Shown here piece after piece: positions 1-61,830 of a stretch of 64,000 nucleotides of DNA. Source of the DNA: Methanosarcinaceae archaeon. Its GTDB lineage: Archaea > Halobacteriota > Methanosarcinia > Methanosarcinales > Methanosarcinaceae. A program made the position numbers and the translations under genes. The stretch covers positions 1-64,000 of the forward strand of contig JAUWQD010000002.1 of NCBI GenBank assembly GCA_030611265.1, in the 5' to 3' direction. Position 1 is the first letter of the stretch. Each line of letters opens with the position of its first letter. The notes beneath the pieces were generated by a model that worked only from the letters and a program-made list of their open reading frames with translations, did no database searches and was not told the origin of the DNA.

Positions 1-149
1 ATACTTGATGGATTTTTTCAGATGTATTTGTAAAAGGACCGATTTTTAAACTATTGGAGGTGTTGTGAAAAACGTTTTGAATACAATAATTGGTCCAGAT
101 TTTTAAAAAAAGTGGGAATCACTAGATTTTGGAATTGTGCCTGTTTTAG

Positions 150-210
150 TATATATTTTATAAATATATAGTGCGAGCTAATTCGACCGGAGGGAGAATT
201 TTCTCGTTGA
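150..210 (+). repeat. Dispersed TATA-linked hairpin element, copy A
   Basis: An AT-rich TATA-like stretch (151-170) is followed at once by a two-part hairpin: outer stem CGAG/CTCG (174-177 with 203-206), a 2x2 internal loop, inner stem AATTC/GAATT (180-184 with 196-200) and an 11-base loop GACCGGAGGGA. The same layout recurs at 57911-57958, 57976-58009 and, inverted, near 61732-61766. The loop carries a Shine-Dalgarno-like GGAGG. It could be a small RNA, an untranslated-region RNA motif or a DNA operator next to a TATA box; the sequence does not decide. Confidence 0.7.
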
Positions 211-271
211 TATAATTTAGAAAATTATAGTCTGACTTTGCTTGGTTCCTTGTACAGCGTTCAATGTCTCT

Positions 272-308
272 AGGTTAATACGACCGCAGGTGGGGAATTA
301 TCTTCTCC
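272..308 (+). repeat. Degraded hairpin element, copy B
   Basis: This stretch aligns with copy A about 95 bases upstream: it keeps the CGACCG core, a G-rich right half, GAATT, and a TTCTCC right arm. The outer stem is lost and the inner stem is imperfect. It has no adjacent TATA-like run as clear as that of copy A. It is probably a decayed family member. Confidence 0.4.
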
Positions 309-430
309 AATCAAGAAGATCGGTGGTAAACTAAAATTTTTTGACGCCACACAAAACCACACTACCAATGACACAGATAGGAATGCTTATATTCAATTAA
401 TGAAGAAATAGGTTTCCGTTAGGTGATGCC

Positions 431-778
431 GTGAAATATGTAATTGCAATAATAAGGCCAGAACGGCTTGATGCAGTCAAGCGTGAGCTTCAGAATGTTG
501 AAGTCAACCGATTGACAGTGTCATCCGCTTCTGGATATGGTGAACAGAAAGGACATTTGGAGGTCTACAGGGCATTGGAGTATGAAGTAAACCTCCTTGA
601 AAAGATCAGGCTTGACATCGCAGTGAACGATGAGTTCCTGAAACCAACAATCGAGGCAATACGAAAAGGAGCCAAAACCTGTGAAGATGGTGCGATAGGA
701 GATGGCAAGATATTCGTGCTGCCACTTGAGAACGTCATAAGGATCCGCACAGATGAAAACGGATCTAATGCAATATAG
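431..778 (+). CDS. glnK: GlnK-type PII nitrogen-sensor protein
   Basis: A PII signal-transduction protein of 115 residues. PII trimers bind ATP/ADP and 2-oxoglutarate and, in the GlnK group, plug the AmtB ammonium channel when nitrogen is plentiful. The GTG start is chosen because the protein begins with the family's first strand (MKYVIAIIRPERL) and no in-frame ATG lies upstream. The T-loop (about residues 36-54) is divergent: it has YGEQKG in place of the usual RGRQKG, but keeps the LEYEV stretch with the tyrosine near position 51. The C-terminal nucleotide-binding signature IGDGKIFVLPLENVIRIRT is clear. It lies 13 bases before amtB, the classic glnK-amtB pair, and is presumably induced by nitrogen limitation. 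Confidence 0.93.
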   Translation: MKYVIAIIRPERLDAVKRELQNVEVNRLTVSSASGYGEQKGHLEVYRALEYEVNLLEKIRLDIAVNDEFLKPTIEAIRKGAKTCEDGAIGDGKIFVLPLENVIRIRTDENGSNAI

Positions 779-791
779 GATGTGAAAAAAC

Positions 792-1985
792 ATGGAAATT
801 GTTGCAGCAGATACTGCATGGGTCCTGATGTCATCAGCACTTGTATTGTTCATGCTTCCCAGGCTTGCACTATTCTATGGCGGAATGGTCAGGCGCAAGA
901 ATGTCTTGAGTAGCATGATGCACTCATTCGTTGCGATGGGGGTCATCACAATCGAGTGGATAGTAGTTGGTTATTCCCTTGCATTTGGAGAAGGAAACTG
1001 GTTTGTAGGTGGATTTGAGCATTTATTCCTTCAGGGAATTGATCTTTATTCAACAACAGGCACGATACCCACCTATGCATTTATTGCATTCCAGGGAATG
1101 TTTGCAGTGATAACTCCTGCCCTTATATCCGGTGCTCTTGTTGGACGTATTAAATTCAAATCATACATCGCATTCATCGCACTGTGGGGTCTTATTGTCT
1201 ATGCACCAGTCTGTCATTGGGTATGGGGTGGCGGATTTCTCACAGGCGAAGCACTCGACTTCGCAGGTGGCACAGTTGTTCACATAACATCAGGCATCTC
1301 CGCTCTTGCGATTCTGGTATACCTTGGCAAGAGGAAAGGATATGGTGTCGATGCGATAAAACCACACAATGTTACACTCACTCTTCTTGGTGCAGGGCTT
1401 CTGTGGTTTGGATGGTTTGGGTTCAATGCAGGATCAGCACTTGCTGCAGATGAGATTGCAGCACTTGCATTTATGACAACATTCATTGCACCAGCAGCTG
1501 CAGGACTTGCATGGATGGCAGTAGAATGGATCCATACGGGAAAACCTACTGCCCTTGGTCTTGCAACCGGAATCGTAGTAGGGCTTGTTTCAATCACTCC
1601 TGGCGCAGGTTTTGTCACACCGATGGCAGCGATTGTGATAGGATTTATCGCAGGAATTGTCTGTTATAAGGCTGTGATGCTTAAAGGTAAACTTGGATAT
1701 GATGATTCACTCGATGTCTTCGGGGTTCATGGTGTCGGAGGGATAACGGGTGCTCTCTTAACAGGTGTATTTGCAAGCATAGGAGCTACAGGCCTTCTTC
1801 TTGGCAACTCGCACCAGTTACTACTTCAGCTTGAAGGAATTGTTATCACAATCATCTATGCAACTGTTTGCACGATCATAATTGGATTTGTGCTTGAGAA
1901 GACGATTGGACTCAAGGTCTCTGAGAGTGAAGAGAACATTGGACTTGACAAGACACAGCATGGTGAAACAGCGTATAACATTTGA
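792..1985 (+). CDS. amtB: Ammonium transporter AmtB
   Basis: An integral-membrane ammonium channel of 397 residues with about 11 transmembrane helices, the usual size for an archaeal Amt without a signal peptide. The two pore histidines sit in GGTVVHITSGISALA and in DVFGVHGVGGITGALL, and the conserved aspartate of the first is in LDFAGG. The C-terminal cytoplasmic tail, GLKVSESEENIGLDKTQHGETAY, is the part that contacts GlnK. It forms an operon with the preceding glnK and is closed by a hairpin plus T-run terminator. Confidence 0.96.
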   Translation: MEIVAADTAWVLMSSALVLFMLPRLALFYGGMVRRKNVLSSMMHSFVAMGVITIEWIVVGYSLAFGEGNWFVGGFEHLFLQGIDLYSTTGTIPTYAFIAFQGMFAVITPALISGALVGRIKFKSYIAFIALWGLIVYAPVCHWVWGGGFLTGEALDFAGGTVVHITSGISALAILVYLGKRKGYGVDAIKPHNVTLTLLGAGLLWFGWFGFNAGSALAADEIAALAFMTTFIAPAAAGLAWMAVEWIHTGKPTALGLATGIVVGLVSITPGAGFVTPMAAIVIGFIAGIVCYKAVMLKGKLGYDDSLDVFGVHGVGGITGALLTGVFASIGATGLLLGNSHQLLLQLEGIVITIIYATVCTIIIGFVLEKTIGLKVSESEENIGLDKTQHGETAYNI

Positions 1986-49758: not shown

Positions 49759-50137
49759 ATCTTATATATTTTCTGATAATTTTAACTCTATTAGAACAAA
49801 TCAGGAAGTAAGGCAATTGATAAGAAAGTTTCTACAACATCCGTTAGTTAAATCTGATGTGAAAAGACCTGAGATCCTTCGGATTTTGTTGCACTTATTG
49901 AGGACGAGTTTAATGACGTGCCCGATGCGGATATTGGTATATGGCTGTCTAACTTTATTGGCACAGATGCTAGAATGACGCCATAGGGTTCCAAGGCCGA
50001 ATCCATACAAACCTTTAAATGATATCAAGTGCGTAATCTGGCAAGTTTCATTATCGGGATGAAATCCCGTAGGAATGTGGCTTTTAAGATCTAAAGGCTG
50101 AACCGTGAAACTAAAATGAAACAAAAGGTGAAACAAA

Positions 50138-50728
50138 TTGTCTAAATCTTTTTATGGATATATTAGGGACGCATGGAAAAAGCCGGATGAGACTTACGTG
50201 CGTGACCTTAGATGGGAACGACTTCAGGAATGGAGAAAAGAAGGCTCGATCACACGGATAAGACGCCCCACGCGTATTGACCGTGCACGAACACTCGGTT
50301 ACAAAGCAAAGCAGGGCATCATTGTCGTGCGTGCAAAGGTTCGCCGCGGTGGAATGAGAAAATCAAGATACGTTCGCGGACGACGTACCCAGCGTATGGG
50401 CAAGAACAAGATGACTACTGGAATGAGTATCCAGAGGATATCTGAAGAGCGTGCTTCAAGGAAGTATCCAAACATGGAAGTCTTGAACTCATACTGGGTA
50501 GCTGAAGATGGTAGATCCAAATGGTACGAGGTAATTCTTGTAGACCCAAGCCATCCTGTTATCAAGAACGACAAGAACCTTAACTGGATATGTGCAAACA
50601 CTGAGAAGGGACGTACATTCCGCGGAAAGACCAGCGCAGGTAAGAAAGGCAGAGGTATGATGAAACGTGGAAAAGGTACTGAAAAGACCCGACCAAGTCT
50701 CAGATCAAACCAGAACAGAGGCAAGTGA
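50138..50728 (+). CDS. rpl15e: Ribosomal protein L15e
   Basis: A 196-residue 50S subunit protein, highly basic. Start is TTG behind AAGGTGA. Recognisable parts are [35 protein letters not shown] and [20 protein letters not shown]. It heads the conserved archaeal superoperon that continues to at least the DHH gene. Confidence 0.96.
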
Positions 50729-57867: not shown

Positions 57868-57894
57868 GATTACGTCTCTTTTTTGTGCTTGCAT

Positions 57895-58015
57895 ATAATT
57901 TATAGAATTATATACTCCGAGTGAATCCGACCGTAAAAATGGATTTTCTCGGAGTATATATTTAATTATATAGTACGAGTAAATCCGACCATAAGGGAGG
58001 ATTTTCTCGGTCCTT
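57895..58015 (+). repeat. Hairpin element, tandem copies C and D
   Basis: Two family members in the Pcc1-prefoldin spacer. Copy C (57911-57958) has a perfect 11 bp outer stem TATACTCCGAG/CTCGGAGTATA, 2x2 loop, inner stem AATCC/GGATT and 12-base loop GACCGTAAAAAT. Copy D (57976-58009) has CGAG/CTCG, AATCC/GGATT and GACCATAAGGGA. Against copy A the inner stem changes from AATTC/GAATT to AATCC/GGATT on both sides, that is, with base-pairing kept. Each copy follows a TATA-like run. Confidence 0.75.
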
Positions 58016-61395: not shown

Positions 61396-61830
61396 TCTAA
61401 TGCTTTACTCGCCTGGTCTTCTGGAATTTTAACTTCATAAATCTCCACAACCTTTAATTTGACATCAAACTCTTCCATAAAGTACACACTTGCGCCATCC
61501 ACACCAGAATTTATCCAATCTTTATAGTTATCATCATCCCACCAACGGCTATAATAATCCCTATACTCCTGATCCGCCACCGCAAAGATATCCAGAAGTA
61601 AGTAACCTCCTCCGGCGGCGTCTCATGGGATGGTTCCGTACATGCCGATCAGTTCTGGAGACATTATTCATTTGGCAATGTCAAGGACAGGAAATTCAGT
61701 GAGAATAAGCACAAACTATAATCGGCCTTGTGAGGAAATTCTCCCTCCGGTCGAATTAAAACTCGCACTATATATTTATAAGATACATACTATGACAAAA
61801 TTATTAAATCTGTAATCCTTGTCACTACCA
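61396..61830. other. Gap with a minus-strand gene scrap and hairpin copy E
   Basis: On the minus strand, from ATG 61580, a frame reads ADQEYRDYYSRWWDDDNYKDWI, then SVYFMEEFDVKLKVVEIYEV, before running antisense into the ACT gene. This recalls the opening of the mature part of archaeal secreted zinc metalloproteases, so it may be a truncated relic; confidence is low. Copy E of the hairpin element lies at 61732-61766, also pointing leftward, with its TATA-like run at about 61766-61782. Confidence 0.4.
61732..61785 (-). repeat. Hairpin element, copy E (inverted)
   Basis: Read on the minus strand: TATA-like TTATAAATATATAG, then GCGAG, a four-base left bulge, inner stem AATTC/GAATT and the same 11-base loop GACCGGAGGGA as copy A, then CTC. 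It is the closest relative of copy A, 61.5 kb away, including the TATA-like flank. Confidence 0.75.

Follow-up and report, generated by a model that had tools for sequence, protein, structure and literature searches.

A repeat of two unlike hairpins is dispersed, in at least 140 copies recognized by a covariance model, through the 2.86-Mb genome of an archaeon that appears to be of the "Ca. Methanovorans" (ANME-3) type, a seafloor methane oxidizer. The repeat is mobile, bears a conserved structure, is targeted to T-tracts and integrates precisely. We propose that the family consists of non-autonomous mobile elements of single-strand type in the Methanosarcinales (mainly ANME-3 and ANME-2), on which an enzyme of the HUH/Y1 kind would act in trans, an attribution for and against which we find the balance about even. 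A preliminary description of a 64-kb stretch of this genome (hereafter the window) had reported five hairpin copies, A to E, with compensatory changes taken as evidence of selection on pairing. A covariance-model search of the genome and its relatives, as proposed there, returned many further copies, with covariation across clades, and both the family and the selection on pairing are thus supported.

Copies in the window and anatomy of the unit

The covariance model, built from 21 units, was run on the window with filters off. It matched copies A, C, D and E (E-values 7e-16 to 8e-10) but not copy B, for which the window gave no match at E≤10. The features of the window are as follows.

140..146, + strand: T-rich 5′ flank of copy A (CCTGTTT), which fits the family consensus TTTNTNR only partly
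147..206, + strand: copy A, full unit (88.8 bits, E 7e-16), with the first hairpin (hp1) at about 150-170 and the second (hp2) at 174-206 (CGAG..CTCG)
211..229, + strand: hp1-like dyad TATAATTTAGAAAATTATA directly 3′ of copy A, a predicted stem, 90% conserved in locus L298
272..308, + strand: copy B of the preliminary description, hp2-like, not a supported copy
57879..57888, + strand: pre-existing target tract TTTTTTGTGC 5′ of copy C; the empty site in L225 has the same tract (TTTTTTGCGC)
57889..57951, + strand: copy C, full unit (59.1 bits)
57952..58009, + strand: copy D (68.5 bits), which abuts copy C exactly, head to tail
61731..61792, − strand: copy E, full unit (63.4 bits), with an internal loop 2 nt larger

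Some weak matches of the model on the opposite strand fall at the same places as the copies, because the hairpins are palindromic. The counterpart of copy B in the related genome G003 gives a weak match to hp2 only, and at best copy B represents a decayed or a derived hp2; the dyad at 211-229 is possibly the start of a decayed second unit. Copy D is orthologous in G003 (L221). The stem of 11 perfect pairs described for copy C is indeed present in the sequence, its complementary arms being contributed by the hp1 of C and by that of the abutting copy D. In an Rfam scan of the window only tRNA and an eL15 leader were found, with nothing relevant at E≤5 in positions 1-800, and the repeat scored above the threshold of no curated family. 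The leader (eL15-Euryarchaeota ribosomal protein leader) lies at 50055-50109, upstream of a gene at 50138.

The unit is 60-62 bp long and consists of hp1 followed by hp2, with the fold ((.(((((((((...))))))))).))((((..(((((..((...))..)))))..)))), whose stability lies at a z of about −4 to −5 relative to shuffled sequences, both as RNA and as DNA. The true unit is longer than in the earlier description, and what had been taken for a TATA-like run is itself a hairpin: hp1 is AT-rich, with a stem of 9-11 bp and a loop of 3 nt. In hp2, which is the more conserved of the two, a CGAG/CTCG outer stem is followed by a TT·TT internal loop, an inner stem (AATTC/GAATT, AATCC/GGATT, AATCT/AGATT, AATGC/GCATT or AACGC/GCGTT), GA opposite GA (retained in about 86% of the distinct hp2 sequences), 2 bp and an NNA loop. 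The strand that reads GACC..GGGA would be the one that folds into the two hairpins. When isolated hairpins were searched for, also as the trace of a longer autonomous form, lone hp1 or hp2 proved essentially absent; the pair of hairpins is therefore the unit, and a longer autonomous form was rejected on the same ground. Subtypes of hp1 and of hp2 are found in many combinations. At two loci (L099 623-682 and L079 4473-4532) the place of hp1 is taken by a hairpin that is unrelated to it and richer in GC (such as TGGACAGG..CCTGTCCA), and a normal hp2 follows.

Covariation

The compensatory changes noted in the preliminary description are real. Within the genome, five pairs show two-sided changes, with a score that was reached in none of 500 shuffles. 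Across clades we analysed a diverse set of 41 units, taken from MAGs of ANME-3 and ANME-2, from Methanothrix-labelled MAGs and from others, in which 11 of 21 pairs covary, with two-sided changes in 84 cells (these count sequences, not independent events) as compared to 27 in the shuffles and at most 13 in the slid controls. Overall 95.3% of the cells are paired, versus at most 53% when the structure is slid along an alignment that was made with MAFFT and not fitted to the structure, although the structure was drawn from the same sequences and this control consequently favours it. Both hairpins covary strongly across clades; for instance, hp1 shifts from TATATATTT/AAATATATA to TACATAAAGT/ACTTTATGTA with its symmetry kept. 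The CRAG at the foot of the inner hp2 stem covaries with the terminal CTYG (AU 21, GC 15, GU 3), which may simply be part of the stem. Mismatches of the G.T type outnumber those of the A.C type by 34 to 18 across clades, an excess that comes largely from one pair and would be consistent with folding of the GACC..GGGA strand; with all copies counted together the difference is weak (39 versus 30).

Insertion sites

About 92% of the copies are intergenic. With genes called by a simple dicodon model written for this analysis, 4 of 47 clusters in the host genome overlap a gene, as compared to 83% coding DNA (P 2.5e-29), and three other sets gave similar results. No consistent strand bias relative to genes can be recognized, the ratio being 20:7 in favour of antisense in the host genome and 25:23 in another ANME-3 set. 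Tandem copies are mostly arranged head to tail, in the same orientation and with a gap of 0.

The 5′ flank of the unit is rich in T. Among 157 non-tandem ANME-3 sites, T occupies positions −7, −6, −5 and −3 in 127, 138, 133 and 129 cases, respectively, and A or G occupies position −1 in 132; over the range −7 to −3, T is present in 62-88% of the ANME-3 sites, and other clades share the same consensus. The resulting motif, TTTNTNR, lies within 2 bases of the junction at 116 of 178 ANME-3 sites, while its background frequency, counted with the motif at a fixed position, is 0.7% of intergenic positions per strand. The 3′ end of the unit itself (TTTTCTCG or TTTTCTTG) fits this motif.

Empty sites were sought by joining the two flanks of a copy in silico and searching for the join in relatives. 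At about a dozen independent loci (for example L131, L261, L222, L177 and L152) the join aligns without gaps to an uninterrupted relative. The pair C+D of the window is absent from L225 as a block of 121 bp, and in cluster 22 the occupied site ATTTTTAA, 61 bp, TTTTTCAG faces the empty site ATTTTTAA, TTTTTTAG, an exact case of 61 bp. No target duplication was found at the empty sites compared; since the alignments are gapless, integration (or precise excision) leaves none. At some sites the position of the cut is defined only to within a base or two, as the flank and the end of the element have letters in common. Insertion without target duplication is also the habit of the IS200/IS605 family, and as there it takes place here 3′ of a specific short target. 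Some insertions are common to species at 85-92% identity (clusters 5 and 9). At two orthologous sites (G000 C46:135180 versus L267, and window position 57889 versus L221) hp1 is kept and the core of hp2 belongs to another subfamily, which suggests conversion, tandem loss or re-insertion.

Copy number and distribution

The density of copies (62 in 833 kb) extrapolates to about 200 in the whole genome, and the strict core pattern CGAGNNAATYCGACC..RATTTTCTCG has 24 exact matches in the genome versus 0 for a reversed-pattern control. Identical dispersed copies also exist, in sets of 5 and 4. Contig C42 of the host genome begins inside a copy (G000 C42:1-28), and the family probably causes assembly breaks. 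A second repeat, intergenic-looking and about 50 bp or more in length, with the core GRAAYGTGCCGCCTGCGGCGGTTG, gives 17 matches in 833 kb (for example G000 C41:70985, C41:98805, C46:161238 and C32:7032), 5 of which lie within 300 bp of a two-hairpin element.

All seven genomes of the genus carry the repeat, with at least tens to about a hundred copies each. Carriers of the motif appear to comprise HMMV ANME3, HMMV2, B4-05, E21, CSMAG_2122, CSMAG_471, several ANME-2 lineages (ANME-2 cluster B4-03, B4-08 and S7142MS1) and two Methanothrix-labelled MAGs (Methanosaeta UBA204 and Methanothrix CSMAG_2495). Of these, HMMV and HMMV2 have been assigned to "Ca. Methanovorans", ANME-3 (PMC9012536). Most other genera of Methanosarcinaceae, including the other large-genome genera, gave no model match, and a degenerate hp2 pattern was not matched exactly in viral contigs. 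Among 394 genomes sampled across the phylum, two additional, more distant ones gave one match and two matches, respectively; in one of them a copy overlaps a cobalamin-pathway-like reading frame.

The nitrogen genes next to copy A

A distance of 224 bp separates the end of copy A from glnK1 (P-II), which is followed by amtB, and for this reason a nitrogen connection, with sRNA154 of Methanosarcina mazei as comparison, had been suggested. Copies have many other neighbourhoods, and this one is not conserved within the genus: the glnK1-amtB DNA (query window 207-1400) was not found in the three relatives of the genus that are more than 90% complete. The 224 bp upstream of glnK1 were tried as a conserved nitrogen RNA and rejected, as their matches elsewhere in the order were only short, with those examined lying mostly in coding DNA, and as they showed no unusual fold stability (z −0.12). 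A non-coding segment of 235 bp (147-381) does recur in G003 (L298 1436-1675, reverse complement) with 85% overall identity, at a place 119 nt downstream of nrpR and not before glnK1, while the other genomes of the genus with good coverage lack it. The homology begins at the left end of the element, which may have brought flanking DNA along or may mark a rearrangement. The sRNA154 of M. mazei is a single gene of 130 nt with a potential NrpR operator (PMC3177094). That small RNA comes from the same archaeal family and has been treated in connection with nitrogen genes; the repeat is dispersed, and in a comparison by description no feature of it fits that gene; the suggested link is thus not upheld.

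Mechanism of mobility

We infer transposition as single-stranded DNA by an enzyme acting in trans. The unit integrates precisely and duplicates no target, its place being immediately 3′ of a TTTNTNR tract that was there before, and because the 3′ end of the unit matches the target, new copies also land on old ones, producing head-to-tail arrays. A putative HUH/Y1 enzyme, of the IS200/IS605 TnpA kind, would cleave at two points, one following the flanking tract and the other following the terminal CTYG. Elements of IS200/IS605 have hairpins at both ends, insert 3′ of a short target and pair their final bases to a guide at the foot of a hairpin (PMC6006769). The repeat also has hairpins at both ends, which here occupy the whole 60 bp, and by the same guide/cleavage-site logic CRAG could serve as the guide that pairs with CTYG. 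Beside hp1 there is room of only about 3 nt for a left guide, and none was seen in the unit.

No transposase was found inside the copies or recurrently adjacent to them, and no co-travelling gene recurs beside them. As a discriminating partner, the Y1 transposase was rejected: it is present in the host but also common in repeat-free genomes. In two repeat-rich members of the genus, whose genomes are 83% and 60% complete, none was found. The IS200 copies of the genus have ends that differ from those of the repeat, and at 20 further Y1 loci no copies of the repeat form the ends.

A serious rival to the Y1 model is that the same repeat moves by another route in trans, through an RNA intermediate and a reverse transcriptase or through a tyrosine or serine recombinase that recognizes hairpins; we lean against it but find it quite conceivable. 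Precise integration without duplication would equally fit reverse splicing or site-specific recombination, GA.GA, TT.TT and the NNA loop are RNA-like, and no matching Y1 element was found; on the other hand, the unit lacks a conserved GTT core as in attC sites, copies outside ANME-3 lack group II intron ends, and no associated gene lies beside the copies. A broader possibility, less likely than not, is a novel class of structure-recognized ANME element, spread between methanotroph and methanogen lineages, in which an enzyme other than a known TnpA_REP would insert a minimal two-hairpin unit with precision, both at T-tracts and at the end of the unit itself.

Readings of the repeat as a functional site fare much worse. 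If the copies were small RNAs or leader RNAs, with a possible nitrogen link as in sRNA154, this would account for the strong covariation, for the location of copy A near glnK1 and for the nrpR neighbour of the 235-bp segment in G003, but the occurrence of at least 140 copies, next to housekeeping genes that are unrelated to one another, their inconsistent strand relation to genes and a presence that is polymorphic between relatives make it improbable, as does the contrast with the single 130-nt sRNA154 gene. We regard as still more improbable an operator or nucleoid-protein dyad in double-stranded DNA: hp1 is an AT-rich palindrome in intergenic DNA, yet its sequence varies widely while its symmetry is kept, whereas a protein site would keep the sequence, and the loop and mismatch features conserved are those of one strand. 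The precise insertion without target duplication also speaks against the small RNA, leader or operator first suggested. Equally slight is the chance that copies of a mobile repeat were later co-opted, perhaps to end transcription or to form structures at the 3′ ends of mRNAs; the insertions common to species speak for it, and the many polymorphic sites among those compared speak against it.

Relation to known systems and significance

REP and REPIN sequences are hairpin units of 20-60 nt, present in high copy in extragenic DNA and in arrays, which are thought to move as single-stranded DNA (PMC3116915, PMC3733652). The repeat resembles them as a high-copy, extragenic palindromic unit of that size. 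REP elements have been described in bacteria, with tags and RAYT genes, and in surveys only in bacterial phyla (PMC3733652, PMC6006769, PMC3116915), whereas the repeat is archaeal and has two unlike hairpins in one orientation. Its foot is RTAG-like in many ANME-3 copies and TTG, CTG or TAG elsewhere, so that there is no general unpaired GTAG or CGTC tag; no TnpA_REP gene flanked by repeats was found, the Y1 loci examined having no flanking copies as ends. In a 2018 survey archaea held only IS200 subclass 1.1 of TnpA (PMC6006769), and the transposase class that goes with REP elements was reported to be missing from them. With IS200/IS605 and its non-autonomous derivatives (PATEs and MITE-like forms) the repeat shares the end hairpins and the insertion 3′ of a short target, but it has no Y1 gene inside, no recurrent neighbour gene, and a T-tract as target. 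MITEs of the DDE type are similarly short, non-autonomous and intergenic; unlike them, the repeat has neither a pair of terminal inverted repeats nor a target duplication.

We found no description of this repeat in the literature on ANME palindromic repeats, in which coverage of subscription papers was limited and an earlier description is possible; as far as the searches show, an archaeal, tag-less, two-hairpin, T-tract-targeted form is new. It is a very abundant archaeal counterpart of REP-type elements that covaries strongly, has a defined target and is matched by clean empty sites, and with so minimal a unit the logic of its recombination lends itself to direct tests in vitro. The repeat is usable as a marker of recent genome change, and of possible exchange, among uncultured methane-oxidizing archaea.
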